49,656 bases of DNA. It comes from a virus. The notes under the pieces are model-generated. The model was not told the DNA's origin. It ran no database searches and saw nothing but the letters and a program-made list of their open reading frames with translations. Shown one piece after another: positions 685 through 17,635 of the stretch (position 1 is the first letter of the stretch; each line of letters begins with the position of its first letter). The stretch spans positions 1-49,656 of the IMG/VR virus record IMGVR_UViG_3300022933_000008; one strand, 5' to 3'. The translations under genes and the position numbers were made by a program.

Positions 685-883
685 GCTCTTTGCTCTCCTG
701 TATTACGTACTTCTCGATTCGCACATGAGGGAACGCGCTCAACATTCGCTCAAGTGTTCGTAAGGTCACATTACCTGTGCGGCACCATCTATATGGGGCG
801 GTACGTGGCACGCCGATGGCTTCGGCCACAGCCCTTGCTCCACCCTGATCGCTGATTAATCGGGCCAAATCTATTCTTCGCAT
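650..883 (-). CDS. Small helix-turn-helix regulator (Cro/CI-like size)
   Basis: A 77-residue protein beginning MRRIDLARLI. The segment from about residue 14 to 45 (GGARAVAEAIGVPRTAPYRW, then an arginine-rich stretch) has the spacing of a helix-turn-helix. I chose the ATG at 883 because GGGAG lies 6 nt upstream. A longer frame to 943 would run back through the palindromes and has no better ribosome site. It is the first gene leftward from a divergent control region with two 15-bp palindromes, so it is the obvious candidate to bind them and control itself and the recombination operon. That link is inference. It is followed, with overlap, by the prim-pol gene. It could be a Cro-like early switch or a lysogeny repressor; the window has no integrase to favour lysogeny. 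Confidence 0.75.
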   Translation of the reverse strand: MRRIDLARLISDQGGARAVAEAIGVPRTAPYRWCRTGNVTLRTLERMLSAFPHVRIEKYVIQESKEHGSDSEGGVST

Positions 884-917
884 CTTAACTCCCGTCGTGA
901 TAAAAGGCGTCCCAACA

Positions 918-959
918 ACACCGGAAAGGTGTGGACAGGGCACCGGAAAGGTGTATAAT
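918..959 (+). promoter_or_regulatory. Divergent control region: sigma70-like promoter with two palindromic operators
   Basis: Two copies of a palindrome with half-sites ACACC and GGTGT around GGAAA lie at 918-932 (perfect) and 940-954 (first base of the left arm changed). Their centres are 22 bp apart, two helical turns. A promoter reading right overlaps both: TGGACA at 932-937, a 16-bp spacer, and a perfect TATAAT at 954-959. The first palindrome touches the -35 box and the second covers the spacer and the first base of the -10, so a bound protein would block RNA polymerase. The leftward promoter is less clear; TTTCCG and TTTATC with a 17-bp spacer could serve and would lie under the first palindrome. 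Confidence 0.8.
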
Positions 960-994
960 AAGCCGGACTCAACGATCAGTCAAGGGGAGTGAAA

Positions 995-1471
995 ATGTCG
1001 GGGAAAATAGTCTCGATTGCTGTTGAATCAGATGAATGGGATGAGTTTGAAGGAGCGCCTTTAAAGCCCTCCAAAGACGTTCTACCCGGAGCCGCATGGA
1101 AGCAAGCACGAGAGGATGTGCGTGCTGCGAACGAACGCCTGACAGTCGCTGAGAACGCCGTACGTGAACTATTGCCTGATGACCCAACAGTGGGGTCTAC
1201 CGAGATCGCAAAGTTGGATGGGCATATATGTGCAGTGCTTAAAACACACAGTCGGATGACGTGGGATTCCTCAAAACTCCTGACATTTATACCGGGAATT
1301 GAGGGGGCACTCAAGTTGTCAATATGTAAGGCTGAGTACGAGAAGTTGGATGATGAAGTAAAAGCCAAACTTGATACAGCACTAACACATATTCCGTACG
1401 AGAGACTTACGTTCGTTGAATTCCATAACGATATGGAAGTAGACGATTTTCTGGAGCATGAAAATGTTTAA
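995..1471 (+). CDS. Hypothetical early protein, first gene of recombination operon
   Basis: I do not recognise this 158-residue protein. It is soluble, acidic at both ends, with a helical middle (about residues 36-62, rich in Ala, Arg and Glu) and an acidic C-terminus. The ATG at 995 is preferred over an upstream GTG at 989 because GGGGAG (984-989) sits 5 nt before it. It lies 36 nt after the -10 box of the divergent promoter and overlaps the Sak4-like ATPase gene by 8 nt, so it is probably translated with the recombination proteins. A role in replication or recombination is inferred only from position. Confidence 0.8.
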   Translation: MSGKIVSIAVESDEWDEFEGAPLKPSKDVLPGAAWKQAREDVRAANERLTVAENAVRELLPDDPTVGSTEIAKLDGHICAVLKTHSRMTWDSSKLLTFIPGIEGALKLSICKAEYEKLDDEVKAKLDTALTHIPYERLTFVEFHNDMEVDDFLEHENV

Positions 1472-2285
1472 TACGAAGAAAACGAATGACACGAAGTTTA
1501 TTAAAGACAAGACCCTGCTTATGGGGCACCACGGGTGGGGTAAGACTCATCAATGCAGGCACTACGCTGAAGCGTATGGCAAGGGATTAATCCTTTCGGG
1601 AGAAGGGGGTCTCAAATCCTTGGAAGACACGGACATTGAGTACGTGGATTTCAAATCATGGGATGGAGATCACAGGCCGGAGGATGGTGTGTACTCATTC
1701 CGTGGGATAGTCAGGATGATGGGTTCCCCAGAGTTCGTGAAAGAAGGTTATCAATGGCTTGTGGTTGATAGCCTAACTGAACTGTCTGACCAGTTGATGG
1801 AACACTGCGAAGAAGAGTTCAAAGATGTGACCAATGGGTTTGTGAAGTGGGGTGAGTACAGTCGTCTGATGATCGGCGCCTTAAAGTGGCTACGGGATAT
1901 AGACATGCACATTTACATGACATGCCTAGTGTCGGAAGAGTCTGATGACAACGGTAACGTAAATTACTGGCCCCTTGTTAAGGGTAACAAAATCGCAAAG
2001 CAATTACCCGCGCTGTTCGATCACGTTTTCTGTGGCGTGCGAACTACTGATGGTGATAAGAACTCGCCAACGATAAAGCGTTTCATCATCACGGAAGAAG
2101 TTCGGGGATGGCATGGGAAGTCTCGTGATCCTCGTGGACGTTTGAAGCCGGTTGAGCCGTGTGACAACGTCGTAACCCTTTTGAAATTGATACGAGCGAC
2201 CGAAGAACAGTACGCGAAATATCGAGAAAGCCAACAACGCCGAAGTAAGCCAACGCAAATTAAAACGAAGGAGAAAGCAGCATGA
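1464..2285 (+). CDS. Sak4-like RecA-fold ATPase (phage AAA_24 type)
   Basis: A 273-residue P-loop ATPase of the kind annotated as phage nucleotide-binding protein or Sak4-like single-strand annealing ATPase. The Walker A is GHHGWGKT at residues 21-28, close to the N-terminus as in that family. A Walker B-like strand, WLVVDSLTEL, lies near residue 93. The total length is typical. Such proteins load on single-stranded DNA with a phage SSB and promote annealing. The ATG at 1464 has GGAG 7 nt upstream; the ATG at 1458 would leave only 1 nt. The gene sits between a hypothetical protein and an SSB-like gene with which it overlaps by 4 nt, the common Sak4-SSB pairing. The final 25 residues are basic and look unstructured. 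Confidence 0.82.
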   Translation: MFNTKKTNDTKFIKDKTLLMGHHGWGKTHQCRHYAEAYGKGLILSGEGGLKSLEDTDIEYVDFKSWDGDHRPEDGVYSFRGIVRMMGSPEFVKEGYQWLVVDSLTELSDQLMEHCEEEFKDVTNGFVKWGEYSRLMIGALKWLRDIDMHIYMTCLVSEESDDNGNVNYWPLVKGNKIAKQLPALFDHVFCGVRTTDGDKNSPTIKRFIITEEVRGWHGKSRDPRGRLKPVEPCDNVVTLLKLIRATEEQYAKYRESQQRRSKPTQIKTKEKAA

Positions 2286-2770
2286 ACGCATTCGCAAGTT
2301 TTTCAGACCTAGACCTATCCGCAGTAAAGGAAGCCAAAGGCATTTCAATCCTTCAGCCGGGTACGTACGATGTACGTGTCGCTAACGCTGAATGGCAAGA
2401 GATGAATAACGGTAATGGCCATCAGGTGATGGTCGAACTCCAAGCCGTAGATGGGGGTGGATCGATCCGACATTGGATTAACGTACATCACAAGACAAGT
2501 AAGATGGCTCAAGAGATTGGCCAACGCCAACTCAAGAGTTTACTGCAATTTGGTGGGCATCCTAGTCCAGACAAGCCGGGTGATATTGCCACCATTCGTG
2601 GCTTGCATGTGGGTGTGGTTGTGGGTATGTCGAAAGAGCGGCGTAACCCAAACACAGGCAAGATCATGGAAAGCCGACCAGAGGTGAAGGGGTATCGTAT
2701 GCCAGATAATGACAGCGCCCCCGTACCAGAGACGGCGGCGCCGTTCGACGATTCACTCCCAGACTTTTAA
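2282..2770 (+). CDS. SSB-like protein with acidic C-terminal tip (DUF669-type)
   Basis: A 162-residue protein with a beta-rich core and an acidic tail ending in DDSLPDF, much like the DDxIPF tip that bacterial SSB proteins use to recruit partners. The core (LQPGTYDVRVANAEW, then a loop and VMVELQAV) resembles the DUF669-type phage proteins that sit next to Sak4 ATPases. The likely role is to coat single-stranded DNA and hand it to the ATPase and exonuclease. It overlaps the ATPase stop by 4 nt (ATGA) and has AAGGAG upstream. A strong terminator follows within 10 nt of the stop, so this is the last gene of the first transcript unless read-through occurs. Confidence 0.75.
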   Translation: MNAFASFSDLDLSAVKEAKGISILQPGTYDVRVANAEWQEMNNGNGHQVMVELQAVDGGGSIRHWINVHHKTSKMAQEIGQRQLKSLLQFGGHPSPDKPGDIATIRGLHVGVVVGMSKERRNPNTGKIMESRPEVKGYRMPDNDSAPVPETAAPFDDSLPDF

Positions 2771-2780
2771 TCATAAGGAG

Positions 2781-2805
2781 AAAGGGGGGCGATGCCCCCC
2801 TTTTT
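2781..2805 (+). terminator. Rho-independent terminator after SSB-like gene
   Basis: A stem of GGGGGGC and GCCCCCC with a 3-nt GAT loop is flanked by AAA before and TTTTT after. It is strong for rightward transcripts and, because of the AAA/TTT flanks, may be partly bidirectional. It separates the ATPase/SSB pair from the winged-helix and exonuclease genes. Confidence 0.9.
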
Positions 2806-2821
2806 GCTTGAGGGTTTTATC

Positions 2822-3070
2822 ATGCTAATACAGCAAACAAGTGTGGATGCGTATAGATCAATCGGTACGTCATTATCAAGCCGGGTACTTGCGTTAATGG
2901 GTGGGCAACCGCTTACCTGTGACGAAGCGGAAATAATTCTTGGCGCAAAGCATCAATCTGTTTCGTCAACCATCCGCGCTTTAGTAAAGAAGAAGGTGCT
3001 TTCGGATACGGGTGAACGTAGGCAAACACGATCAGGGCGTATGGCAATAGTGTGGGGTGTAATACATTGA
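2822..3070 (+). CDS. Winged helix-turn-helix protein
   Basis: An 82-residue protein whose centre reads as a winged helix: CDEAEIILGAKHQSVSSTI (turn and recognition helix), then RALVKKKVLSDTG and a basic wing with QTRSGRMAIVW. This matches small phage wHTH proteins found beside replication genes. A frame reaching back to 2792 would start inside the terminator loop, so I take the ATG at 2822, with a TTGAGGG stretch 7 nt upstream. It overlaps the exonuclease start. It may regulate late versus early transcription or bind replication DNA; nothing in the window decides this. Confidence 0.75.
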   Translation: MLIQQTSVDAYRSIGTSLSSRVLALMGGQPLTCDEAEIILGAKHQSVSSTIRALVKKKVLSDTGERRQTRSGRMAIVWGVIH

Positions 3071-3870
3071 TAGCCCAAACACTTATGGACGCGCTCGAAA
3101 AGGAGGGCGATCCGATTCGGTACAAGACACGCTCCTATATAGGGGCGTCAATTATTGGTAACGACTGCACCGCTTACCTACACCTATCCATGCGTGGCTT
3201 TCCAGAGAACACACCCCCGCCAAAACTCTTGCGCATATTTAATGTAGGACACGCCCTTGAAGACATGGTCGTGGCCGACCTAAAGAAGAACGGCGGCTAT
3301 GGTGTGAGTGAGGTGGATGAATTAACGGGCGACCAATACGAGTACACAGCGTTAGGTGATCATGTCGTGTGCCATCTGGACGGGATCATTTATGTGGATG
3401 AGGAGCCGTGCGTGTTGGAAATCAAGACGATGAACAAGAGTAAGTTCAATGCGTTTGAGAAGAAGGGGGTAAAGGTTTCTCATCCGAATTACTTTGCGCA
3501 GTGCATGTTGGCTATGCACTTGAGCAAGTTGGAGAAGTCTTACCTACTCGCGATCTGTAAGGATGATTGTCGATATCATGTACAGATTATTGAGTACGAT
3601 GAGTTTGAGGTGGCGGCGCTGCGTCAGAAAATTTCCCAAGCCGTTTCGGAGCCAGAGAGGATTGCGCAGACGGATTCAGATTGGCGCTGCCGAGGATGCT
3701 TTAAGCGCACTTCATGCTGGCACCCAAGCGAGATCAAGCCCAAGCCAAGTTGTAACCTATGTGAGCATGGTATGCCTGACATGTACGGTCAGAGTAAGCA
3801 GTGGTACTGCCACCATCACGACCGGCCCGCTAAGGAGCCGTGTGATGAGTTTAAGTTATTTGTACTTTGA
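3067..3870 (+). CDS. PD-(D/E)XK exonuclease with C-terminal cysteine clusters
   Basis: A nuclease of the lambda-exonuclease/YqaJ/Cas4 superfamily. The catalytic core is D105, E118 and K120 (HLDG, then VLEIKT), followed by a Q-containing helix (FAQCMLAMHL) as in that fold. The C-terminal third holds cysteines at 208, 211 and 217 and again at 229, 232, 248 and 259, with a C-H-H-H run, suggesting bound zinc or an iron-sulphur cluster. With the upstream Sak4-like ATPase and SSB-like protein it completes a recombination set: resect, coat, anneal. The start is uncertain. TTG 3067 has GGGGT about 8 nt upstream and overlaps the previous stop, GTG 3052 has a distant site, and ATG 3085 has none. Its last codons and stop lie in a 15-bp repeat shared with the convergent giant gene. 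Confidence 0.82.
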   Translation: MIAQTLMDALEKEGDPIRYKTRSYIGASIIGNDCTAYLHLSMRGFPENTPPPKLLRIFNVGHALEDMVVADLKKNGGYGVSEVDELTGDQYEYTALGDHVVCHLDGIIYVDEEPCVLEIKTMNKSKFNAFEKKGVKVSHPNYFAQCMLAMHLSKLEKSYLLAICKDDCRYHVQIIEYDEFEVAALRQKISQAVSEPERIAQTDSDWRCRGCFKRTSCWHPSEIKPKPSCNLCEHGMPDMYGQSKQWYCHHHDRPAKEPCDEFKLFVL

Positions 3871-6800
3871 TCCGCCGTACTTTGATCCGCCGTACTTTGA
3901 TCCGCTATAGCGTCCGCTACCGGATGATTTCTCGCCACCCATTAGATCAACCATACTTTCCTTAACTGCTTTCAAGCCTCCCACGACGGGGATGCGTTGA
4001 ACAACTTCACGAGCGGCTTGCCGACCCTTACCGTTGGGGTCTCCCTCTTCACCCCATAGTAAGTTACCCAAACCACTGGCCGTGTTCCACGCGCCAATGG
4101 TTTGTCCGAATGTTGGGCCAAGCACATTACTCATTGCGCGGGAGTAGCCGTACATACCATTGTCCGCTTGCTCTACGACATTATGCAGGAGTTCGAGGTA
4201 GAGACCGAAGCCACCCATGTGCATCATGCCTTCGATATACCATCCGGCGAAGTCGTTGGGATCGCCATGAAGGTCTGGGTTGTAGCCAACGGCTTCAAGC
4301 CAAGAGATGTTCTTGCCGTGTCGATCACGGATAACCCCTTGCTCCTCGTCGCCACGCATCTGTATTGCGTCCTTAGCGGATATAGCCATAGCACCACCGG
4401 CTGGCCCCATTACCGCGAGCATAGCGAGGGGTTTATAAGAGTGCAGGTTCTTCGGGTCTTTAACAATCTCCATGATGCTGTCTTTACTCAAGCGGGCCAT
4501 CATCATGGGGAATGATTTCAACTGCCAGACCATCGCACCCGCTGGGGTCTGCGCCCATAGCGGTATGTCGTTTGTGTTGGGAGCGAAGATCGTATCGTTA
4601 GCGAACTTGATAAGCGCGTCGCGCATCTGATCGCTCTGTAGAACCAGTTCAGGATCGATGGCTTCGTCATACTGCATGCCGATATGATTTCGGTTTTTGA
4701 CTAGGCTCTCGATAGATGGAGAGTTTGGTCGAGCGTAATTGCCAAGACCATATTTCTCCAGCACCCGTTTGGCCTTCCTTCCTTGTCGGCTATTTAAGCC
4801 ATGCTTTGCGATACGCCGCTGTTCAGTCTTAAACCACTCGAAGCCAATGATGCCTGCCATTTCACGCATGGAGTCTGTCCACGGTGATAGCATGGTTGCG
4901 TTGAAGAAGGCGGTTGTGAGTTTGGAAGCATCCGCCCCGTACAGCCCGACAAGCCTGTTGTGTACATAGTTCTCGATTGACAGGCCAGAGTCGCGCATCA
5001 TTGCCCTGTAGTCAGGGTCAGATGCGTACTTGTGCATACCGCGAAGCCACGCGCCAACTTCACCAGAGCGTAGTAAGGGAATGAATGGGTCAGTTAATGA
5101 TGTAACCGTGGTGAAACTCAGCATCGTTAGCGCATTCATGTTGCGCATAAACTTAGAGATGGGGCGCATCGCTGTATGGAAATGTGAATCTCCTACAGGC
5201 TTACGCATCGCTGCCATGAGAAGGTCTTCCATGACTTTCACTTCACTCGGCGCTACTTGACCCCTTTTTGTGTGGCTCTCTAAGCCAGCAACAATGGCTT
5301 CGGCCCGGCGATCCCACTGAAACTGCTTCTTACTATCGAGCGGGAAACTAAATAGTTCTGGATTTTGCAGAATCCGATTTGCTTCGGCGATGCCTCCACG
5401 ATTCTTAATGGCGTCGATTACATCATCGATCATTTGAGTGGCAGCAAATTCGTTCTCCTTGAACGGAGCAGGAATCTGATCGGTGCGTTGCATGGTTTCC
5501 ACCTTGCCATCTACGACGCCTCTGATCGTGCGGCGTATTTCCCGTGGCTTCAACAATGCCTTAACGGCGGCCTCCTTACCTTCCTCAATGACGCGCATGT
5601 ACATAAGCGCGCCATGATTGCCTTGACCAAATCGTTTTGCAAACTCGATCTTTCTAGTGGAGCCATCCAAATACTTGGCAAGGATCGCGCCAATATCATT
5701 TTCAAGAAACTCACCAAGAGCAAACAAATCTTGCCGAAACTCTGGGCGATGCAGTTTAATCATTCGTTGATAGTCAACATGATCTAATCCCGCATCATTC
5801 TTGGTTGCGTATTGCGGGGGTATATGAGTGCCATCGTCATCGATGATATTCCTTACCATCTTCTTCGCAATTCTTCGGGCGTCCTCTATGCCGAGAGTAT
5901 CGTGACGTTCTCTTGCCTCACGTATAAAGTAATCGGAAAGTTTTTCTACGGCCCGCGCTTGATTCCTTTGTAGTGATTCCTTAGACCATATCTGAGGAAC
6001 ATAGTTTTCCTTAATGCCTGAGTGCATGATCCCGTAGTGAATCATGGCATCCTTTTCATTATTAAAAGTTTCCCTGATTCTCTGGTACGCGCGTCGTTCA
6101 GCGGCGTTAGCCAATGCTCGACCTTCTCCAGTACGAAGCGCCATGATGACTCTTAGTTCTGATGGCGTTGGCTTGGAGCGGGCACGTACATCTATTGATC
6201 GCTTGAACCAGCGTTGCACTGCATTGCCGGTGCCGGGCAGGGCATTGAGTGCGCGTACGATTGGCATGATCTTGCGGCCAATCTCGTTATCGACGCGCTC
6301 GAAGATGCCTGTGCCATTCTCTTTCTGAAGGAAGTCAGAAATAAAATTGTCGCCATATTTGCGTAAGCGGGCGGAGCCTTTACGTAGGAAATAGACCGGG
6401 CCTTTGCGGAAGCCTTCGGCAATATCTTCTGGCGATGGGCCTCCCCTGCCTCTTATTGAATCAACGAACCGGCCAACTGTACCATCTGAACTAGCCACGG
6501 TATGGGAAACACCTACTGTTGATCCGTCTCCTCCCTCTAAAATGTCACGGACTATCGGGGTGACAATCGTTTCGTTAGTTGGGTTCGGATTTAACTCAAG
6601 AACTTCTTCTTCCGTGAAGTATGGGTCATTAAGTTTCTTCGCCTTCTTAGTATCGAAGATGACGTACTCTGTATGGTTATCTCTCAAGCCACCAACTGAA
6701 CGATGCTCTCCCGTGAAACTTATGCCATCGTAGCCCATGTCAGAGAGAATCTTGTTTACTCGCACTTTTGCAGTGGCTTCGTTTGCGTTGTCTCCATTCG

Positions 6801-9800
6801 CTAGAGTTCGCCACATTGCTTTGTATAATTCGCGTCCGCGATCTACTCCTTCCCTGCCAGCCACTGCGAGAATATTTCCAGTTGCGGACATGGATATAGC
6901 ATCTCCATCCTTTGCAACACTGTTCATGAACTCAGAGATTAGCCAATTTGAGGGGTCGTTCTGCGCGCTTCTAGTGAAGTCTGCATATCGATTGCAAGAA
7001 CATGCGATTGGGGCAACCTGATCATAGTTGCGCCCGGTAACTTTTCTTAATTGGCTTGCTATACGTCCTTCAATCTCGAAGAGTTCATCTAAACCAGCAT
7101 CAGTTAGCGAGTACCAGTCGCCTTTTACTTTCGCTTCAGCAATATCTTCGCGAATAGAGGATAGGTTGGAAGCCAATGATTCCGCTTCATTTACCTTTTC
7201 AAATGGGGCTTCAGCATCGTTAAGGTGCTGTACGACAATGTCTTCAAGCGTTTTCTGATAGGGCTTGGAATGGGTAGACGCATAAACACCGCTACCAAAC
7301 TCACCTAATTCTGGGAGGAGGGCGGCTTCACCGTTGGAGCGCACAAAGTAAGGAGTTACCCCTGACGCGGTTCGCGCCATGCCTGTGCTCACGAAAGCGG
7401 CAAGGTTGCTTTTCTCTCGCGGAGTCATACCGTCGAGCAGGTCTTTCGCGTATTGGCCAGCGTATTCCTGAGATACAGAGGCGTCCTCCTTTAGGCGGAG
7501 AGATAGGTCTCTCGCCCGGACACCCCGACTCGATCCCATCGGATCAGCGTGATCAGATATTCTTGGGTGAGTTCCATACATACTTTCAAGGGAACTGATG
7601 CCATCCATCATGTATGCGACACTGGAGTTCAGGCTATCCATAGCCGATGTAACGTCTGCCAATGATTCATCTCTCACACCACGTAATGGCGCGTTCCCTT
7701 CTTTGGCGTAACTTGACCAGCGTTGGAGAAATTCTGCGTCGTCTTTGAAGTTGGTCTTGATTGCCGAAAGTTCTTCCGGTGTTAACAGGCCAGCACGCAT
7801 GGCGAATCTTGCCAACTGTACTGCGTCCTTTTCTTTAACCGCAGTGCGGACTTGATTACGGAATGACCGAAACTCCTCGTTGGAAAAATCCGCAAGGGTT
7901 TTATGTGGGGTATCTTGCAATGGCTTGCCAGCCAACTTTGCAATGTGCTCATTGGTAATCGGAGATGCCGGGTCTGTAAGCCCAGCGATATTGAAGATGC
8001 GATAAGAGACGAGGCGGGCATCTGCCGTTTTTGTTGGAGTCCGCTCTGTAATTCGAGAAAGCGTCTCTTGGATGTGGGGTCTAGCCAAAGAGGGGATGCC
8101 ATCTACGGGGGCTGTAGATGCAGAATCAGTAGTTTCACGACCTGCTATATCTACCTCAATCCTAGATACAGTTGGCTTGTCTTGGGTTCTCTTTACCTTA
8201 TTATTCGCCCTGCGAATTATCTCAGATTTGATTTGAGCGATCTCCATTCGCTCCGCTTTAGTCTTACCCGCGCCGAGTTCAGCGAGCCTGCGGATCATTT
8301 CTGGTTTCTGTGTATTGAAAAGTTCCTGTGGGATATTGACACCCTCTGCCGGTGGCTTGCCCTGTACTATACGAATCTCAATCTCTCTTGCCGCATCCTT
8401 GGCTTTGATGGGGTCGGATGTTCTGTTGGAAATAATGTCGAACAACTGATCGTTGTCCAGTTCTTTCGTGGTGTAGCCACCAGTGACTCCGTATTTTTCT
8501 TTGTTCTTCCTTAATACAGCGCCCTTCTTTTTCCCCGCTCGATTGGCTTTCTCTTTGTTAGCGGAACGATCTGTGCGTTCCCACTGAAGCCCGGTCACTT
8601 CATCACGACGTAAGCCTTGTCGGAATTGTGTGGGGATTAAGTCAATCCACCCTTTGTTTGAGGTTATACCAGCGGCTGACTGCCATCTTTGAGCGAAGAC
8701 GTACCCTAATTCTCGAAGTACATTCTCTGTGTCCGGCATATTAAATATGGCTTCAATAGCGAGACGCTCATCATCCCCCATAAATGCGGTATCGTCAGCG
8801 TCCTGCTTTGCAAGCCATCTATCCGCTTCATCCATATCAACATCTAATTTCTCGCCGCTGGCTGGATTGATTGCGTTGCCTTCCTCGTCTAGCATTATCC
8901 TGTTAGCCGCGTCAGACAAGTCTTGGACGTGCCGCCCAAAGGATTCGTAATCGACAACCTCTCCCTCATCATCGACAATATCGCCAAGGTCATCAAAGTC
9001 GAGTTCAGACCGTTCCCTGTCAACTAGAATTCTGCCGTTATCTCCCCACTGACCTTCTTTCCAGTGCGCGGTTTCGTCGAAGGGAACGACGCGCCCATCT
9101 GATCCCCATTGGCTTACCGTCTTAACTGTTGAAAGTTCGCCATCGGTTATCTCGAAAATCTTTGTGGCTAACGAGATTAGGGATCGCCTCATCGGTCGGC
9201 CAAGTTGTTTTTCGTGGCTTGAGTCGAGCAGGTTGGAGGCAAGATTACGCGCGGAAATAGATAGCCGATCTATATCGGTAGAATTTTTCGCGTCCTCTAG
9301 TTCTCTTGAGATTGTGTCAAACCCACCCATTCGCGCGAGCAATTTGTTGGCGTGACCGACGGTTAATCGATTGAATTTATATTTTTGTAAATCCTTTGCG
9401 ATTTGAGATCGAGCCGTATCAAGCATGCGGGACTTGAATTCATCAGGGAGAACTCGATCAAGAATTTCTCTGACAGCGGGGTCGATGTAATCTCTTGCTG
9501 CCGGGTCGGCTTTCATCGCATCGCCACGTATTAGCCCTGCGATCTCACCTAACTGTTTAACGGTTTGTTTCGTATTGAGCATCACAGTCTTCCACCATTT
9601 CTCATCAAGCGCGCCGGGCATGCGTCGAAGTAAGAAAGCGGTGGCGTTTTCTGCGAAATATTCATTTGGGCTGTTTGCAATATTGCCGGGAGAGAAGTCG
9701 CCCATTAGTCCACTGACATCAGCGTCTAACTGGTCGCCAGTTCTACCCCTTATTGCGTTTTCCCAGTAGTAAAGACGTTCGTTATCGGTTAAGACATTAG

Positions 9801-12800
9801 CGTATGCCCAGTGCATGATTTCGTGGGTAGTGATATGAAGGGCAGGCTTATAACCCCCCGTCAACCCCCTGTTAGTTATTGAAATATTAGCGGGAGGCGC
9901 CTTAGCAGTGAATCCGCCTTCATTCTCTGGGTTGTTATCTCTATATTTATCTCGATTAGATTCGATGCCAAGTAAGTCTGGTTTTTCTTTTAGTCTCGGA
10001 TAATTATCAGTTGTTAAATCCGCAAACGAAGGAGCAATATCATTAGTGTCGCGCGTGAGATGTTCCATAATCTCAAGCACCGCGCTTGTAGTCTTTTGAT
10101 CAGACCAGAAAAGATTTTTGATCTGGTCGTATGACTGCTGACGTGTGGCTTCTCCGTAAATAATCCCTCCGGGGAAAGCCTTATGTCTTATCCGGTAAAG
10201 ATTCGACAAGGCGAGAATGTGTTGTTTGTAATCCCCCTTAACCCACTCCCTTCCTTTAAGTCTTGGAGCGACCGCTGGCCAACTAACCTCCAATCTAGTG
10301 AGCATTTCTTCAATAGTGCGGACATCAATATGGGCTGTTGGGGTAATGCTCTTATAGAAGCGAGCCAAGTAATTAAGTGACTGTACATCCATGTCGCCAA
10401 AATCAATTATCTCGTCTTGTACATCTCGAAAATTAACAGGCTTTAGAGGTGTGTCGGATTTAGTTGGAGAAACAAACCCGCCTACTTTATACCTATCAAT
10501 AATGTGGGCGTCTTTGGGATCATCAGGAACAAAGTCCTCTATAGCCTTCTGGCTAGTGGCTCCCTTGTATTTAATGGGAACCGTGCCGGTGATCCACTCA
10601 TTCATATCGCCCTTGGCGCCGATAATGGTTGCAGCACTAGCATTACTTTGCCCCTTACTTTCAACTCGGAAGTAAGAGGTCTGAAATCCACTGGGGTTAG
10701 ATTTTCCTTGTACTGTGGGGGTACGCCTTAGTACCGCAGTTACCCTTGCATCAGGATCGAGTTCCTTTCCAACATCTGATGAGGTCTTTCTCTTTCCCTC
10801 CGCTCGGGCTTCGCGCTTTCTTTTAAAGGCTTCCCTTATCCTTTCAACACGAGAGTCAACCTGCTCGTCAGACATATCAGCGATGCGGCGTTCTATTCGT
10901 TCGTTTGATGCGACGCTATCCTCTGGCGACTCTTTGCGTGGCGATGTGGGTAGTTTGCTGAGTGTGGCTGGAGTGACCTTACCGCCACCTATATCTGAGA
11001 TCGGCTGTTTACCCTCACCACGGGCAACCAACATCTCATCAAAGTTCTCGTCCGTCCAAGTCTTCTTAGTGATGGGGTCGTACCAAAGTTTGGCTTTCCT
11101 TTTTGACCACTTTGGAGCGGTGTATACCGTGCCATCCTTACGGCTATGCTGAATAATCTCACTGGTAATCTTCTCGCCTTTTACTGCGAGAAAGGGAACC
11201 GGATCGGATGAGCCAGTGATTTCGGCTTTGGCGCGGGCAGATGAAAAGCCTTCCGTCCCGTCGTTATTCCAATCTCGACGAACATTTGTTCGAGTAGGTC
11301 GTCGCGCTCGGCCGGGAGTGATGCCAATGCCGGTGGCGATGCGGCCAGATGAGGAGCCGGGGGTTCCTTTGGTGGCTACCCTTACCTGTGCCTGTTCGAT
11401 CTCATCTTGGAGTATTCGATTTCTAATCTTCTCGAAGATGGGGTCTTGGAGTATGCCCTCACCTTTGTTCGCCTTTGCGCGACGAGAAAAATCACGCATC
11501 GCTATGATGTTAGGGACTAGATCATCAGGAACTTCCGAAAGAGGTAGTCGCGATACATCTTCAGGGATGTCAAATGTTTTGCGATAGAAGGCGCGAGTGG
11601 CTTCGATGATTCGGGTTAAGGACTCTCCCTTTGCGCCCTTAAACATGTTACGAAGTTTCTCTGACTGCTCGATGCGGGCCGCGATTGATTTGCGAACCGG
11701 GTTCTGCATTTTTCTAGGAAGTTTAGAAATCTCAGCATCAAAGTCAGGGGGTGCGGTTGTTGCAGAATCAAGTGTGTCGGTTTCCGATATTGGCTTGTAC
11801 CTTTCATCCGAAGCCAGTTTTGCTTTTAATGATTCGCCAGCCGCCTGCCAGTCGCCATCAATTTCACGATCCAGCAAGTCATCAACAGCGTCATCAATGG
11901 CTTCGTGAAGCATTGGCCGATGTTTTGGAGTGGCTGCCCAATCATCATAGTAAGCATCAGTGAATCCCAAGGCTCGGAATGACGCATCAATTTCATCAAT
12001 AAGGGTTCCTTCAAGCCCTTCAAGTGCTTCGCCTTCTTTGGATTTTTGCAACGTGGCCAGTCGATCTTCAATAGCCGCGCTTAATTCTTCCTTGCTAAGT
12101 TTGGGATCGATCCTCTCATCGGACGACTTATTTAGTTCGCGAGCGATCTTCTGTAGAGCGGCCTTACCGCCGCGAGTTACACGAAGGACGTTATAGTTTT
12201 CTACATTCCCTTCACCCCATTGGTGAATCGTGTTAGAGATGAACGGGTCTTTATCTAACGGCGCATCTTCTGGAATGGCGGGGCTTGAATCAACATCCGC
12301 GTCTGCGGGTGGAATATCAGAATCAACTGGGGCCGGATCGCCCGTGTTATCCGTCGTTGTAGGCTCCCCAATTTTGGTTTGCGCCTGTTGTTTGGAGGCT
12401 GCGGGCGATAAGGTGAGTAGCCGATCATCAATGGATTTGACGTTGTGCGCGTTAGAGTCTGCATTATTGACCGCGTCTACAAGAAGTTGCTCAAGTTCTT
12501 CTAGTTCTTCCGGTGGTAATTCCCCTGAGTTGCGTTTGGCTTCCAGCGCGCGATGAAGTCGTTTGACCTCTTGGAAGTATTCTCGCTTATTAATAAAATC
12601 TGCTGCGTCAGCGCCGTCCGCCTCTAGTGTTGTTGCGTTCTGTTGAGCGTTATGAACTTCAGCGTTGATACGGGATGGAACATCATCGTATTTAAGAGGG
12701 GCGTTTAGTTGATGGCTCGTATCGATTTTATTTGGATTAGGCTCGTGCTGTCCAAGATCGACGCGCTCATTAGCGGGCATGTTGGAGTGATCATTGGGGG

Positions 12801-13671
12801 TTATATCTCTCTTGGCGTAAGATTCAAACCATTTTGTGTTCCCCGTCTCAACGTCAACCATTGCGGCGATTTGCTCTGGCTTCCAGCCATTACGAGTTAG
12901 TCGTTCAATGGTTTTGTTTACTTGGTTTGTTGTTAATTTCGCACCAGCGGCTGCGAACAAGCCACCGAACACACCACCCGCCACTGCACCAAAGCCAGCG
13001 GCTTGGCCAACTCGTCCCATATCGACTGAATCTTGAATACCGAGTTCAACATCTGTGGCTTGGGTTCCGTACTCAAGCCCGGCTTCAATACCGCCAGAGA
13101 GAACACTCTCTCCCGCCGCTCCCTGTAAAGCGCGTTTACCTATTAGTCCAGTAGGTTTGCCAACCGCCTTTGATGCGGCATAGCCAGCGCGTGCGGCTTT
13201 AGCGCCCCAGCCAAGGGGGAGAAGGTTGGTTGGATCGGTGACTGCGGCAGTGCCCCATTCGTATAGGCCGGTTCCCCAACCCATACCGCCTTCCTCATAG
13301 AAGGATGGCATCTCGTGGTAGGCTTGGCGGAGTCGGTTGTTGGCGGAGCGGACATCCTCATCTTCAATACCAGTGGCGGTAAGGTAGCCTTGATCGCCAT
13401 TGATGGCGGAGTATGTGTTACCTAATGACCAGACCATGTCGCTGTACCAGCGATCAATGGCTTCGTCGTCATTGTTAAAGTGAACGCCGCGCGCGTTGTA
13501 GACCTTGTAGATGTCACGCAGGAGCGCGGGATTATTTCGGAAGTTCGACACATCCCCAATTGGTGAGTTCGGATCAGGGAGGTCAGGTATAACCGTGTCA
13601 GACCACTCATCCGGGGTGTATGCACCGCCCGTGAGGGTTAGGTCTTTACTTGGATCGTATTGTTTTACCAT
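3856..13671 (-). CDS. Giant polyvalent ejection-type protein with zincin and ART-like segments
   Basis: A 3,271-residue protein in the position of T7 gp16, last in the ejection-protein series, so probably injected with the DNA. The N-terminal ~240 residues include small-residue-rich hydrophobic stretches. A zinc metallopeptidase signature is clear: HEIMH at 1283-1287 and a downstream EYFAE at 1337-1341 that can give the third ligand. A second segment, about 2100-2345, looks like the ADP-ribosyltransferase-type domain of polyvalent proteins: GVYAST at 2128 and GYDGISFTG at 2313 followed by EYVIFD. The last ~700 residues resemble conserved virion tails (NALTMLSFTTVTSLTDPF). It ends in GGSKY repeats. 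I found no lytic transglycosylase and no single-subunit RNA polymerase motifs, although the length rivals the N4 virion polymerase. Zincin confidence is fair; ART is tentative. Confidence 0.88.
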   Translation of the reverse strand: MVKQYDPSKDLTLTGGAYTPDEWSDTVIPDLPDPNSPIGDVSNFRNNPALLRDIYKVYNARGVHFNNDDEAIDRWYSDMVWSLGNTYSAINGDQGYLTATGIEDEDVRSANNRLRQAYHEMPSFYEEGGMGWGTGLYEWGTAAVTDPTNLLPLGWGAKAARAGYAASKAVGKPTGLIGKRALQGAAGESVLSGGIEAGLEYGTQATDVELGIQDSVDMGRVGQAAGFGAVAGGVFGGLFAAAGAKLTTNQVNKTIERLTRNGWKPEQIAAMVDVETGNTKWFESYAKRDITPNDHSNMPANERVDLGQHEPNPNKIDTSHQLNAPLKYDDVPSRINAEVHNAQQNATTLEADGADAADFINKREYFQEVKRLHRALEAKRNSGELPPEELEELEQLLVDAVNNADSNAHNVKSIDDRLLTLSPAASKQQAQTKIGEPTTTDNTGDPAPVDSDIPPADADVDSSPAIPEDAPLDKDPFISNTIHQWGEGNVENYNVLRVTRGGKAALQKIARELNKSSDERIDPKLSKEELSAAIEDRLATLQKSKEGEALEGLEGTLIDEIDASFRALGFTDAYYDDWAATPKHRPMLHEAIDDAVDDLLDREIDGDWQAAGESLKAKLASDERYKPISETDTLDSATTAPPDFDAEISKLPRKMQNPVRKSIAARIEQSEKLRNMFKGAKGESLTRIIEATRAFYRKTFDIPEDVSRLPLSEVPDDLVPNIIAMRDFSRRAKANKGEGILQDPIFEKIRNRILQDEIEQAQVRVATKGTPGSSSGRIATGIGITPGRARRPTRTNVRRDWNNDGTEGFSSARAKAEITGSSDPVPFLAVKGEKITSEIIQHSRKDGTVYTAPKWSKRKAKLWYDPITKKTWTDENFDEMLVARGEGKQPISDIGGGKVTPATLSKLPTSPRKESPEDSVASNERIERRIADMSDEQVDSRVERIREAFKRKREARAEGKRKTSSDVGKELDPDARVTAVLRRTPTVQGKSNPSGFQTSYFRVESKGQSNASAATIIGAKGDMNEWITGTVPIKYKGATSQKAIEDFVPDDPKDAHIIDRYKVGGFVSPTKSDTPLKPVNFRDVQDEIIDFGDMDVQSLNYLARFYKSITPTAHIDVRTIEEMLTRLEVSWPAVAPRLKGREWVKGDYKQHILALSNLYRIRHKAFPGGIIYGEATRQQSYDQIKNLFWSDQKTTSAVLEIMEHLTRDTNDIAPSFADLTTDNYPRLKEKPDLLGIESNRDKYRDNNPENEGGFTAKAPPANISITNRGLTGGYKPALHITTHEIMHWAYANVLTDNERLYYWENAIRGRTGDQLDADVSGLMGDFSPGNIANSPNEYFAENATAFLLRRMPGALDEKWWKTVMLNTKQTVKQLGEIAGLIRGDAMKADPAARDYIDPAVREILDRVLPDEFKSRMLDTARSQIAKDLQKYKFNRLTVGHANKLLARMGGFDTISRELEDAKNSTDIDRLSISARNLASNLLDSSHEKQLGRPMRRSLISLATKIFEITDGELSTVKTVSQWGSDGRVVPFDETAHWKEGQWGDNGRILVDRERSELDFDDLGDIVDDEGEVVDYESFGRHVQDLSDAANRIMLDEEGNAINPASGEKLDVDMDEADRWLAKQDADDTAFMGDDERLAIEAIFNMPDTENVLRELGYVFAQRWQSAAGITSNKGWIDLIPTQFRQGLRRDEVTGLQWERTDRSANKEKANRAGKKKGAVLRKNKEKYGVTGGYTTKELDNDQLFDIISNRTSDPIKAKDAAREIEIRIVQGKPPAEGVNIPQELFNTQKPEMIRRLAELGAGKTKAERMEIAQIKSEIIRRANNKVKRTQDKPTVSRIEVDIAGRETTDSASTAPVDGIPSLARPHIQETLSRITERTPTKTADARLVSYRIFNIAGLTDPASPITNEHIAKLAGKPLQDTPHKTLADFSNEEFRSFRNQVRTAVKEKDAVQLARFAMRAGLLTPEELSAIKTNFKDDAEFLQRWSSYAKEGNAPLRGVRDESLADVTSAMDSLNSSVAYMMDGISSLESMYGTHPRISDHADPMGSSRGVRARDLSLRLKEDASVSQEYAGQYAKDLLDGMTPREKSNLAAFVSTGMARTASGVTPYFVRSNGEAALLPELGEFGSGVYASTHSKPYQKTLEDIVVQHLNDAEAPFEKVNEAESLASNLSSIREDIAEAKVKGDWYSLTDAGLDELFEIEGRIASQLRKVTGRNYDQVAPIACSCNRYADFTRSAQNDPSNWLISEFMNSVAKDGDAISMSATGNILAVAGREGVDRGRELYKAMWRTLANGDNANEATAKVRVNKILSDMGYDGISFTGEHRSVGGLRDNHTEYVIFDTKKAKKLNDPYFTEEEVLELNPNPTNETIVTPIVRDILEGGDGSTVGVSHTVASSDGTVGRFVDSIRGRGGPSPEDIAEGFRKGPVYFLRKGSARLRKYGDNFISDFLQKENGTGIFERVDNEIGRKIMPIVRALNALPGTGNAVQRWFKRSIDVRARSKPTPSELRVIMALRTGEGRALANAAERRAYQRIRETFNNEKDAMIHYGIMHSGIKENYVPQIWSKESLQRNQARAVEKLSDYFIREARERHDTLGIEDARRIAKKMVRNIIDDDGTHIPPQYATKNDAGLDHVDYQRMIKLHRPEFRQDLFALGEFLENDIGAILAKYLDGSTRKIEFAKRFGQGNHGALMYMRVIEEGKEAAVKALLKPREIRRTIRGVVDGKVETMQRTDQIPAPFKENEFAATQMIDDVIDAIKNRGGIAEANRILQNPELFSFPLDSKKQFQWDRRAEAIVAGLESHTKRGQVAPSEVKVMEDLLMAAMRKPVGDSHFHTAMRPISKFMRNMNALTMLSFTTVTSLTDPFIPLLRSGEVGAWLRGMHKYASDPDYRAMMRDSGLSIENYVHNRLVGLYGADASKLTTAFFNATMLSPWTDSMREMAGIIGFEWFKTEQRRIAKHGLNSRQGRKAKRVLEKYGLGNYARPNSPSIESLVKNRNHIGMQYDEAIDPELVLQSDQMRDALIKFANDTIFAPNTNDIPLWAQTPAGAMVWQLKSFPMMMARLSKDSIMEIVKDPKNLHSYKPLAMLAVMGPAGGAMAISAKDAIQMRGDEEQGVIRDRHGKNISWLEAVGYNPDLHGDPNDFAGWYIEGMMHMGGFGLYLELLHNVVEQADNGMYGYSRAMSNVLGPTFGQTIGAWNTASGLGNLLWGEEGDPNGKGRQAAREVVQRIPVVGGLKAVKESMVDLMGGEKSSGSGRYSGSKYGGSKYGGSKYK
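3862..3906. repeat. Three tandem 15-bp repeats spanning two convergent stop codons
   Basis: The unit GTACTTTGATCCGCC occurs three times head to tail, the last copy with a changed final base. On the minus strand it encodes the GGSKY repeats that end the giant protein. On the plus strand the first copy supplies the last two codons and TGA stop of the exonuclease. The two genes overlap tail to tail by 15 nt here. No hairpin terminator is visible between them. Confidence 0.9.
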
Positions 13672-13672
13672 G

Positions 13673-16153
13673 TTAGTCTAATCCGCCTACTGAAGTTTTT
13701 CCCAGCGGGATGTTGAAGGCGCCGAACTTCGGTTCAGACCACTCAGTAGTTAATTTAAGCCGTTGCGCAAACTTTCGCGGTTCCATGTTGTATTTTTTTG
13801 CATAGGCTAGAACCATTTGCTTACGCATATTAGGAGGCCAGTTGGCTACGCCGCCCCAAACTGGGCTAATCCCGTCTGACGTTTTTCTGATCTTCCCCTG
13901 CGAGTTAATAACTTCTTCAATCTCTCCCGCAATGCGCTCGAAGTCTTGATCAGATAGTGTCGATCCTTCTTGGGGTATGGGGGTAGTAGTCCCGCCTTGA
14001 GTATTTGAAGTAGTGGTTGGTCGTTCATCAACCGCTCTGATCTTTTCTTGAAATACCGCTAATGCCTGACGACCTTGTTCAATCGCGCTCTTATATCTAT
14101 CGTATTCATCTTTTCGCAGCGCAGGCCCATACTTATCTAAGCGGGCGGAGTCCATTTCTAGTTTGGTGTATTGGTTATGCAGGTACTGATCTAGTTGCGC
14201 AATCCTTTTAACCCTATCCTCGTGGGTCATCTCAGCACCACTCTCCTCTAGTTGGTTAAGAATTGCATAACCATTAGAGAGACTACTTCCATCCGCTTGG
14301 ACTTTCTCGTATTGAGAGATAAACCCATCCGGGTCATCCAGTAATCTCATTGCAGATCGATACATGTTCCATCTTGCGCTTTGTTTTGGGTCTAACGATG
14401 TGGTCGCAGGATGTTGTTTGAGAATATTTGCAACAGTGCTTGAAGCGGAGAGGAGATTAACGCCTTCTCCTGATAATTCGTCTTTGCGGGCTTTAACAAT
14501 CTCTATAGCCGCATTTAGTTGGCCCTTTGTTTTAATTGAGCCGTTCTGAATAAGGATGTCGACGATGCTTAACCCGTTGTCGCCTTTGTTTTTTCCGTCT
14601 GATCCTATGTTGAAATGCCGACCAGCAATGAGGCCGAGCATGTTGTCAAGACCCTCTTTCTTAACGAAATTATCTGCACCCGGAGTGATAGTAGTTTCCG
14701 CCTCGACCGTGTTGGCGAGGGTTGCTCTTATCCCATCCCCAACATTCTTACGAAGTAATGTTTCTACATCATCTAAGGTGTAGTTTTTGTTTGCTGATTT
14801 ATTTAAAGCGGTCAACCATTTATCTATAGTGCCAGCGTTGCCATCGTAGAGATCACGCAAGATGCGTGTGGGGTTTGATAACTCTTGCTGCATCGCGGTC
14901 GAGAGATACTCGCGATTTGCCTGTTCGCGAGTCGGTGCTTTCTGATCAAGAAACCCTTTTAGACGGGCTTTGAATTCATGACCCAAGGTGAGGTGCCCCA
15001 AGCCAAGAGCCTCTATCATTGCGGGCACGGTATCCACCTCTCCTGCTATCGCCCGCATATCTGCTCCGCGTGCATGAAGGATTTTCGATTCGGCCATATC
15101 TCTGGCTTTGGAAGGATCGAACCCTGCCATCCATTGCTCGACGATTTCGGGTTCGTTGGGGAATTGCCGTGATAAAACTTCTACCGCCTGTTGAGTCAAC
15201 TCGTTGTCGTTTTTTGCTACCAAGGCTCGCTCGCCGATTTGATCGTACACCCCTGTCAAAGCCTTGGTTTGTTGTTCGTAGTTAGCGACAGCATCCGCCT
15301 TCACGCCGTCCATTATGAGTTGGGCCACTTCTTGGTCGGTGACTAACTGCACATCCTCATCAAAGCCAAACTTTACTCGTATGTCGTTCCGTAATTGTGC
15401 TAATGCTGGAGAATCTTTACCGGAGTAGGCTTGAGGCTTGGCTTCGACTTCTTGCCTTACGATGTTGGCCGCCTCCTGTTGCTTCTTTGCTCTATTCTGA
15501 TCACGCTTTTGCTTGCGTGTCAGGTAGTTAAACTGCTTTGTAATTTCTGTGAAATCTAATTCAGGGTGTATCGCCGTCAATTTTTGAAGCGCCCTTTGCC
15601 CTGCCGCCTTGTGCGCCGCTTCATCTAACGGCTTCTGACCGAATGATATTGCGGCCAGTTCTTGGTCTAGTGCTTTTGTAAATAGATCATTTTTATTCTT
15701 GTTGAGGGTGATCGCATCAGTCTTTTGTTTGATTTCAAAATTTTTTCTATTCCGATCTTCTGTTACCAAATCCTGAAGATAATTTCTTCGGTAAACAGAT
15801 TGTGCGTTACTAAAAGTTTTTTGTTGGTTCTCAAAAGTTGTTTGTGTGTTCCCTCTTTGCCTAAGCGTGTAAGCACGATCCTCTTCCTTCTGATTTAATA
15901 TGTCCTGATTATTCTGATCCGCACGGTCTAATCCGCCCTTACCAAGAATTGCATCAGCGCCGCCGGGGTTAAGTTTTTTAGCAAAAGCATCGATGTCCGC
16001 TTTAGTGGCTTGGGGATTCTGGCGGATGAAATTGTTGAGCGTCGTTGCTGCGGCCGCTAACGCGGCTTGATCCTTCTTATCTTCGGCACGCCAATAATCT
16101 CCACGCTCCGCCATACCCTCGGCGAATGAACCCATGTATGCGCCTAATCCCAT
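13673..16153 (-). CDS. Ejection-type internal virion protein (gp15-like position)
   Basis: An 826-residue, almost wholly helical protein rich in Gln, Lys, Asp and Ala, with long predicted coiled segments (about residues 85-130 and 205-235). It lies directly upstream of the giant gene (1 nt apart) and downstream of a gp14-like gene, the place of the T7 gp15 core protein (747 residues). Its sequence does not show a recognisable enzyme motif. A TTTSNTQGGTTTPIPQEG stretch near residue 700 is a likely flexible linker before a compact C-terminal domain of about 110 residues. Assignment rests on order, length and composition. Confidence 0.7.
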   Translation of the reverse strand: MGLGAYMGSFAEGMAERGDYWRAEDKKDQAALAAAATTLNNFIRQNPQATKADIDAFAKKLNPGGADAILGKGGLDRADQNNQDILNQKEEDRAYTLRQRGNTQTTFENQQKTFSNAQSVYRRNYLQDLVTEDRNRKNFEIKQKTDAITLNKNKNDLFTKALDQELAAISFGQKPLDEAAHKAAGQRALQKLTAIHPELDFTEITKQFNYLTRKQKRDQNRAKKQQEAANIVRQEVEAKPQAYSGKDSPALAQLRNDIRVKFGFDEDVQLVTDQEVAQLIMDGVKADAVANYEQQTKALTGVYDQIGERALVAKNDNELTQQAVEVLSRQFPNEPEIVEQWMAGFDPSKARDMAESKILHARGADMRAIAGEVDTVPAMIEALGLGHLTLGHEFKARLKGFLDQKAPTREQANREYLSTAMQQELSNPTRILRDLYDGNAGTIDKWLTALNKSANKNYTLDDVETLLRKNVGDGIRATLANTVEAETTITPGADNFVKKEGLDNMLGLIAGRHFNIGSDGKNKGDNGLSIVDILIQNGSIKTKGQLNAAIEIVKARKDELSGEGVNLLSASSTVANILKQHPATTSLDPKQSARWNMYRSAMRLLDDPDGFISQYEKVQADGSSLSNGYAILNQLEESGAEMTHEDRVKRIAQLDQYLHNQYTKLEMDSARLDKYGPALRKDEYDRYKSAIEQGRQALAVFQEKIRAVDERPTTTSNTQGGTTTPIPQEGSTLSDQDFERIAGEIEEVINSQGKIRKTSDGISPVWGGVANWPPNMRKQMVLAYAKKYNMEPRKFAQRLKLTTEWSEPKFGAFNIPLGKTSVGGLD

Positions 16154-16159
16154 ATTTAA

Positions 16160-17635
16160 CTAACCCCAACTCCATGTATAAGGGTTTGAAGCGTCGTAAG
16201 CGCCACCGTATCCGGGGAAAGAGGAGGTTCCGCCCATGCTACCCCACGGAATATTTTTAGCGACGTCTTGAAGCCCCGCGCCTGCGGCTTGCATTCCTGT
16301 AGAGGGGTCGGCTGTTGGGCTTCGGAATGTCGAACCCATTGCGTTTAGATACCCGGTTGGGTTGTAGATGCTTCCAGCGGTGGTCTTAGTGTTTAAGCCA
16401 AGCCATTGGGCTATTGGAGATGTGCTTGGCATCATGTTGCTTGTAGCGGAGCCGATGCCTAAAGTTTGACCCAGACTACCTTGGCCCGGCATCTGATTCC
16501 AAATGGCTGATGGAAGGTTCTGGTACGCTGTGGTTGCCGTTGAGGTGCCGGGTAATCCCGTATAGATGGCAGAGCCTACGTCACGATTAAGGATGCCAGA
16601 GCCAAGTTGTGGGGCTTGGCCGTACATCCCGACCTGTGGCACTGTGGCTTGCTGGGCTTCTGACATAAGTAGGCCGCGCTTATTGAGTTCATGCGCAATG
16701 CGAGCGTCCTCGTTGGACTGGTAGTTCATGATCTCACCCATTGCGGACTGTCTGGCTTGGCCTGATAAGGAAGCCAAAGAGGTAGACATACGAGCGGCGA
16801 TTTCTGCGCGACGGGAGTTATTATCTGCGCCGTCTGTTCCTACGCCTCGGCGAATGAGGTTGGCTTCACTTTGGGAAGTAGCGGCAGTGAGCGCAGATTT
16901 CCAACCGGGCATAACGTCGGCCATGTTGCGTTCGTAAAGTCGGTTAACATCGGCTTCGCCGTAGGTCTCGCGGGATGGGATATCACCAAGAGAAGTCCGA
17001 ACCCTGTCGATTTCAGATGAGAAATCATCGATAGCGCCGAAGTAACGGTCTTGGTTTATTTTCTGTTCTGCGCGCTCCATCTCTGCTTTGCGTTGATCCG
17101 ATGCTAATTGAGATATACGCCATGATCTCTCGTCTTGCGCTTCTAATCGATTGGACTCGTGCGTCTTTTGTTCGTATTGACGTTCATTCGTAAGTTTTAA
17201 TTCAAGTGATCTTAGTTCACGTTCAGCAAATGCCCGCTCATTAGCGGCCATGTTTGAGTTCTTCATGATCTCGCGGATTTCATAGAGGCGATCCATCTGC
17301 GCCGCTTGATCCACCTTACCTTGACGCGCAATGTCGTAGTTGCGCTCTTGGAATAATTGGTCGAGGGTTTCTCTTACACGACCCTTCTCGTAATCCCGCG
17401 CGTTCATCATCATCATGTCGCGGAACCGCTGTTGGTCTTTATAGTAGCGAGAATCGTTTCGCTCTTGGGCGAGCAACTGCATGGTCAAGCCCTTGTTATC
17501 GCCCATCTGACCCATCAGATATTTGCGATACTCCTCCATTTTTGCATCGTACGCTTCCTGCGCCTTTGCCGCCTTAGATGCGCCAATTAGGCCAGCACCG
17601 GCCTGAATTACACCAGAGATAATTGCGCCCCACAT
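16160..17635 (-). CDS. Internal virion protein (gp14-like)
   Basis: A 491-residue protein beginning MWGAIISGVIQAGAGLIGAS, the short glycine/alanine hydrophobic helix followed by KAAKAQEAYDAKMEEYRKYL that is characteristic of gp14-type internal virion proteins. Residues 60-230 are charged coiled coil. The remaining half is Gly/Ser/Gln-rich and low in charge (TSLASLSGQARQSAMGEIMN, then many GS and GM pairs). gp14 of T7 forms the part of the ejection channel in the outer membrane; the same role is inferred here. It has a strong AAGGAGG ribosome site and is much longer than T7 gp14 (196 residues), mainly through the C-terminal extension. Confidence 0.72.
   Translation of the reverse strand: MWGAIISGVIQAGAGLIGASKAAKAQEAYDAKMEEYRKYLMGQMGDNKGLTMQLLAQERNDSRYYKDQQRFRDMMMMNARDYEKGRVRETLDQLFQERNYDIARQGKVDQAAQMDRLYEIREIMKNSNMAANERAFAERELRSLELKLTNERQYEQKTHESNRLEAQDERSWRISQLASDQRKAEMERAEQKINQDRYFGAIDDFSSEIDRVRTSLGDIPSRETYGEADVNRLYERNMADVMPGWKSALTAATSQSEANLIRRGVGTDGADNNSRRAEIAARMSTSLASLSGQARQSAMGEIMNYQSNEDARIAHELNKRGLLMSEAQQATVPQVGMYGQAPQLGSGILNRDVGSAIYTGLPGTSTATTAYQNLPSAIWNQMPGQGSLGQTLGIGSATSNMMPSTSPIAQWLGLNTKTTAGSIYNPTGYLNAMGSTFRSPTADPSTGMQAAGAGLQDVAKNIPWGSMGGTSSFPGYGGAYDASNPYTWSWG

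Follow-up and report, generated by a model that had tools for sequence, protein, structure and literature searches.

A probable polyvalent ejection protein of the T7 gp16 class, with a likely zincin and an ADP-ribosyltransferase-like domain, in a CRP-810-type marine podovirus

The IMG/VR virus record IMGVR_UViG_3300022933_000008, analyzed over its whole 49,656 bases and referred to here as the window, contains a gene for a giant protein of 3,271 residues. This protein is probably a T7 gp16-class (internal virion protein D) ejection protein of a CRP-810-type marine podovirus that has been turned into a polyvalent carrier. The open reading frame (ORF) runs from 3856 to 13671 on the minus strand, starts with ATG and has no internal stops. 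A first-pass annotation, made from the letters of the window, had given the same gene limits and length without the strand, and the positions it listed for HEIMH (1283), EYFAE (1337), GVYAST (2128), GYDGISFTG (2313) and EYVIFD (2335) are all correct. Several disparate domains, including a likely zincin and a domain derived from ADP-ribosyltransferases (ART), lie in this single ORF, which is the mark of a polyvalent-type protein.

Relatives and domain architecture

A megablast comparison of the window with phages gave no matches. Scans of viral contigs with three queries (the zincin, the ART-like region and the C-terminal portion) produced 124 candidate ORFs, 48 of them non-redundant at 85% identity (the window is counted in both figures). 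The carrier scan retained the best 80 of 280 relatives, so distant relatives fall outside this set, and the same scan of genome contigs returned 173 pattern matches, none of which was a relative. Thirty-two of the 48 non-redundant ORFs, window included, are 2,725 to 3,668 residues long and contain both the carrier and the ejection N-module, and these complete proteins share a common order of ejection N-module, zincin, ART-like region and C-terminal carrier. Their median pairwise identity is 27%, and it is of some interest that a single domain order is maintained across proteins so diverged. Pure cargo swapping in the style of polymorphic toxins is not supported, because the order is fixed across the family.

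As judged by alignment of the window protein with its relative L011, the ends are more conserved than the middle: per 100 window residues, 81-82 are identical over residues 1-200 and 66-90 over residues 2401-3200, against 22-44 over residues 901-1400. Further islands of family-wide conservation were seen at residues 751-800, 1001-1050 and 1851-1900; the first two lie outside the assigned domains and the third falls within the degenerate second zincin module described below.

End modules shared with ejection proteins

The N-terminal module (residues 1-300) matched 16 phage records by tblastn, of which 13 were Pelagibacter phages, and in 12 of these 13 an "internal virion protein" annotation lies under the match. 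Each match to a Pelagibacter "internal virion protein D" is weak (E 3e-3 to 0.9); gp36 of Roseobacter phage CRP-810 matched at E 7e-11 and HTVC033P at E 2e-4. A profile of 35 N-module sequences gave 147.6 bits to the internal virion protein D of HTVC019P and 108.3 bits to HTVC033P gp52, and found nothing on T7 gp16 or on the virion RNA polymerase (vRNAP) of phage N4. At the other end, the C-terminal carrier (residues 2390-3271) aligned with TL-2011b gp38 over 561 columns in hhalign (probability 99.2, E 1.6e-19), and the family phrog_342 includes both TL-2011b gp38 (701.6 bits) and T7 gp16 (1354.7 bits). When the carrier is aligned to T7 gp16 directly, the alignment lands on a stretch that pairs NYVPQIW with TYVPHVY. 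CRP-810 gp34 matches phrog_684, "virion structural protein", at E 5e-25. A Pfam scan of 46 carriers returned no consistent family (LPD39 appeared in one of the 46, at 0.087), and the carrier, zincin and N-module profiles had no significant match among PDB sequences. The first-pass annotation had placed the gene in the T7 gp16 slot; that assignment is now backed by homology as well as by gene order, because two bridges, HTVC019P internal virion protein D and TL-2011b gp38, connect the end modules to this class. Like T7 gp16, the giant protein is the product of the last gene in a run of internal proteins; it differs in being 2.5 times longer and in carrying zincin and ART-like cargo.

The protein might instead be an N4-like virion protein, that is, a relative of vRNAP that lacks the polymerase. 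N4 gp50, the vRNAP, is likewise a huge ejected chain in which an HExxH domain is followed by a large helical C-terminal domain (PMC12633501), and the two proteins are comparable in size and share the metallopeptidase (MPTase) theme. In addition, CRP-810 gp36 matches phrog_2206 (virion RNA polymerase) at E 5.8e-5. However, sequence homology between the giant protein and gp50 was undetectable: the best vRNAP domain reached just 3.6 bits with the N-module profile, the carrier and zincin profiles gave hhalign probabilities of 0.1 and 1.6, and a Pfam scan of the giant protein detected no polymerase. Kinship with N4 vRNAP, as suggested by the one PHROG match, was rejected on these three profile comparisons, and we regard this origin as very improbable.

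A likely zincin with invariant motif residues and a degenerate second copy

The first-pass annotation had read HEIMH together with EYFAE as a zinc peptidase. Residues H1283, E1284, H1287 and E1337, which correspond to a gluzincin-type HExxH and downstream Glu, do not vary among the 45 sequences aligned over the site, whose mean column identity is 24%. This set consists of the window, 43 viral-contig proteins and CRP-810, with four fragments ending short of the zincin excluded. Since its members were chosen by an HE..HW pattern, an unbiased check was made on ORFs found through the C-terminal carrier that have more than 1,400 residues upstream; HExxHW is present in all 31 of these non-redundant ORFs. 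A lone HExxH is weak evidence, as it arose in 125 of 2,000 shuffles of the window protein. Elsewhere in the 48 non-redundant ORFs (140,733 residues) HExxH was found only twice, one occurrence being a second zincin, and by these counts its conservation across the family is beyond chance. Alignment A7 (44 rows, 285 residues), from which the structure was predicted, has seven invariant columns, four of which are the two His and two Glu.

An AlphaFold2 model of the domain has a mean predicted local distance difference test (pLDDT) score of 74.5, with a poorly modeled middle. Re-ranking of Foldseek's own PDB list with VIA-align placed seven chains of Pro-Pro endopeptidases (PPEP) at the top (Z 5.1-5.4), above an anthrax toxin assembly chain (4.0) and unrelated folds (3.5 or less). 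PPEP/Zmp1 proteins also account for 11 of the 13 matches to the zincin sequence profile, at E 1.3 and above, with the E1337 stretch aligned to PEEFFAE. PPEP-1 and Zmp1 share the third-ligand motif with the giant protein, and a Z of 5.4 with sequence E above 1 suggests the same broad fold at most. The two best BFVD matches bear names that refer to large polyvalent protein associated domains (probabilities 1.00 and 0.99). The Pfam family MPTase-PolyVal (PF18818) did not match the window and matched one of 44 aligned members weakly (E 0.074); DUF6782, a putative metallopeptidase, matched one of the 44 at 1.2e-5. The structural, profile and BFVD lines are each weak singly; combined with the invariant residues they indicate that this is likely a zincin domain, in keeping with the peptidase first proposed, with its exact family uncertain.

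Fifteen of 44 proteins (a count that includes the near duplicates L001 and L014) have another HExxH 604-765 residues beyond the first, itself followed by an EEWF or EEWY segment. The two zincins are homologous to each other (hhalign probability 92.8, E 3.9e-7), and window residues 1844-2027 align with the intact second-zincin family (probability 98.6, E 6.4e-16). As these residues have lost both HExxH and the EEWF segment, the second zincin is, to judge from the alignment, dead in the window, and for this reason it is invisible to a plain reading of the window sequence.

The zincin might act as a host-directed effector, striking host proteins at the onset of infection together with the ART-like domain, as the first-pass annotation proposed; it would then be conserved because all hosts offer the same target. 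There is precedent for this among polyvalent proteins in sections 8 and 9 of Iyer et al. (2017, PMC5512222), and the zincin region is the part of the chain that differs most between close relatives (28-35 identical per 100 residues over 1101-1400 versus 66-90 in the carrier) around a fixed active site. Typical effectors are swapped, however, whereas the zincin is present in all 31 informative carrier-found relatives, and the window ART-like domain has lost its His. We therefore consider a host-directed effector unlikely, and the purely host-specific form of the "disarming" role suggested in the first-pass annotation is not supported, because every informative relative has the zincin.

The ART-like domain

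The region containing GVYAST and GYDGISFTG had been likened to the ART domain of polyvalent proteins. Its ancestry can be upheld: Pfam ART-PolyVal (PF18760) matches 24 of 42 aligned members (best E 3e-11) as well as CRP-810 gp35 (E 7e-5), and on these matches the ART ancestry of the family holds. The active site of ART-PolyVal proteins is a His-Tyr-Asp triad (section 9 of PMC5512222), and in the window the catalytic His is Arg, so ART activity cannot be assumed. Among 47 sequences (two ORFs with insufficient ART region were excluded), the strand-1 His is present in 35, the Tyr in 41 and the Asp in 40, with Glu in six more; all three occur together in 30. R2111 of the window aligns with the His column, Y2130 with the Tyr column and D2315 with the Asp column, and the model suggests that D2315, of GYDG, is the strand-5 Asp. 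Arg replaces the His in five of the 47 (the window, L004, L012, L013 and L021), each of which has Arg, Tyr and Asp. The Glu of EYVIFD, on which the first-pass annotation drew, is less conserved (10 of 47).

For structural work the set was reduced to the 42 members counted above for PF18760 by dropping L113, L104, L109, L099 and CRP-810. The resulting model (pLDDT 87.5) finds its best structural match in chain 9k3a_B of the cyanophage A4 pre-ejectosome (Foldseek E 0.10, probability 0.85; VIA Z 8.5 over 173 residues at 5.1 Å), which would mean that a domain of this kind sits in the head of a phage. The other matches are mostly coiled-coil; MbcT (6fkg_B), which we take to be ART-like, scored a VIA Z of 5.5 with 123 residues aligned. 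From its size and residue range, 9k3a_B appears to be A-4L ORF27, a protein that has HGT and GSGTYF motifs. The ART region of ORF27 aligned weakly with our ART profile (hhalign E 8e-4, probability 24), and ORF27 had no Pfam ART match. Searching PDB sequences with the ART profile returned 9r1o (5.5e-6), a designed helical repeat rejected as a coiled-coil artefact, and otherwise nothing significant.

The resemblance to a solved pre-ejectosome chain, the absence of the ART His from 12 of 47 sequences and the dead second zincin would all be consistent with a mostly structural role, in which the zincin and ART-like folds serve as ejectosome scaffold without catalysis. Scaffold use leaves unexplained that four of the seven invariant columns in the first zincin are predicted catalytic or ligand residues, and we think such a role quite doubtful.

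Proposed role in infection

We favor an ejection protein that carries enzyme domains. The N-module and C-terminal carrier would serve to load the chain into the core of the head; early in infection the chain would be ejected, and the end modules would help build a trans-envelope channel. The roughly 2,000 residues in the middle, comprising the intact-looking zincin, the dead second zincin and the ART-like domain, could then enter with or before the DNA and reach the periplasm or the cytoplasm. The zincin, presumably acting by zinc proteolysis, is universal in the family and so fits a common step such as processing; the chances that its target for processing is the ejected chain or the ejectosome are about even, and action mainly on a host protein is the less likely option. 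Both possibilities were already proposed for polyvalent proteins by Iyer et al. (2017, PMC5512222). The ART-like domain, which is less conserved, would suit a role that is structural or depends on the host; it may persist as a transferase, altered or NAD-binding, or else as a building block of the ejectosome. A more elaborate scheme, which we hold to be improbable, would have a widespread marine phage lineage combine syringe and payload in its gp16-type channel-forming chain, with the zincin cutting linkers to free the central enzymes inside the cell and the ART-like domain of the window's lineage having changed its NAD binding through the switch from His to Arg.

A number of results weigh against the reading we favor. 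The direct alignment of the carrier with T7 gp16 is weak (hhalign probability 15.8, E 0.0016), and the Pfam scan of the window protein found no ART or peptidase family and no SLT lytic domain of the T7 gp16 type; PF18760 in particular does not match the window domain. Foldseek returned 33 PDB matches for the first zincin, none below E 0.001, and the PPEP match, at Z 5.4, came from a second look at that list. Finally, N4 vRNAP, which has the same kind of HExxH, is reported to be packaged unprocessed (section 8 of PMC5512222), which indicates that self-processing is not the rule.

Comparison with known systems

The closest counterpart is found in Roseobacter phage CRP-810 (OR671924), whose gp36, gp35 and gp34 carry these modules in the same order, including a zincin motif HELAHWAY and an ART-PolyVal-like FYHGT. 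Unlike the window, CRP-810 has three annotated ORFs for this stretch, an intact second zincin and the ART His. The break between gp35 and gp34 is an out-of-frame tandem duplication (L001 19880-20080) that splits the frame and may be genuine or may have arisen in assembly. In L014, a close relative of CRP-810 (84-90% DNA identity) whose contig starts inside gp35 and covers the gp35/gp34 junction, the duplication is absent and the frame is intact. The split at this junction was therefore rejected as a sign of a natural processing site. In the portion of the CRP-810 paper available, internal virion protein D is described as common to all subgroups, and ORF36 (internal virion protein D) is the sole product named in the gp36-gp34 stretch; the words "peptidase" and "ADP-ribosyl" do not occur in its main text.

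Like the polyvalent proteins described in the accessible sections of Iyer et al. (2017, PMC5512222), the giant protein joins a zincin-like MPTase and an ART in one late-gene protein. The carriers given there are N4 vRNAP and MuF, whereas that of the giant protein is an internal-virion-protein-D chain, and the term "T7-like" is absent from their text. Aeromonas phage phiA008 gp66 has the same C-terminal carrier (94.8 bits) and a zincin-like HELGHAWM with a downstream DEWFADQ, and, unlike the giant protein, an N-terminal SNase domain (PF00565).

In our searches of an open-licence library we recognized no paper that describes this giant protein. The polyvalent concept is known; as far as our searches show, the gp16-type carrier, the tandem zincins, the fixed architecture and the His-to-Arg change are new. 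A T7 gp16-class ejection protein would be able to carry enzyme domains. Because this podovirus line includes a cultured phage, CRP-810 (Roseobacter, CHUG lineage), the polyvalent-protein idea can be put to the test in it.

Genomic setting and other features

The giant gene comes last in the run of internal virion proteins; since gaps to the adjoining upstream genes are only 1 to 12 bases, that late run is densely packed and ends with it. The same strand also carries the terminase, portal/adaptor, major head and tail genes. The 826-residue protein in the gp15 slot matched nothing in PHROGs and had no significant Pfam match. Coordinates are collected in Table 1.

Table 1. Features of the giant gene and its neighbors in the window
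Feature	Residues	Window position	Strand	Basis
Whole gene, putative giant internal virion (ejection) protein	1-3271	3856..13671	-	ORF; 32 complete non-redundant family members, the window among them
N-terminal module, homologous to internal virion protein D of HTVC019P-type phages	1-300	12772..13671	-	tblastn and profile
Zincin domain 1 (likely)	1141-1425	9397..10251	-	44-member alignment A7, structure model, VIA, BFVD
HEIMH, two predicted zinc ligands and general base	1283-1287	9811..9825	-	Invariant 45/45; 31/31 in unbiased set
E1337, predicted third zinc ligand	1337	9661..9663	-	Invariant 45/45; aligns within PPEP/Zmp1 PEEFFAE stretch
Degenerate second zincin, lacking HExxH and EEWF segment	1844-2027	7591..8142	-	hhalign to intact second-zincin family
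ART-PolyVal-like domain; R2111 (for His), Y2130, D2315	2041-2385	6517..7551	-	Model, VIA, PF18760 in relatives
C-terminal carrier, T7-gp16-family-like	2390-3271	3859..6504	-	hhalign to TL-2011b gp38
gp15 slot, 826 residues, internal virion protein C purely by position		13673..16153	-	Gene order
gp14 slot, 491 residues, internal virion protein B by position		16160..17635	-	Gene order; resembles CRP-810 gp38

At the 3' end of the giant gene, a 15-base unit present 2.9 times (3862-3905, minus strand) encodes a GSKYG-type repeat at the extreme C-terminus, and the gene overlaps a convergent exonuclease-like gene on the plus strand (3052-3870) by 15 bases. Within the virion operon is a GNAT acetyltransferase-like gene (19554-20054, minus strand; phrog_1249, 2.5e-16), found in the same place in CRP-810 (gp40). 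Two adjoining genes at 29717-30849 (minus strand) each match phrog_14820 (E about 1e-45) and are tandem paralogues, and a 36-base repeat of about ten copies (36655-37004) lies inside a tail-fiber-like ORF (36060-37703). A plus-strand gene at 46623-48602 matches phrog_249 (porphyrin biosynthesis, 1.1e-53), which fits the cobS/cobT genes reported for CRP-810-type phages.

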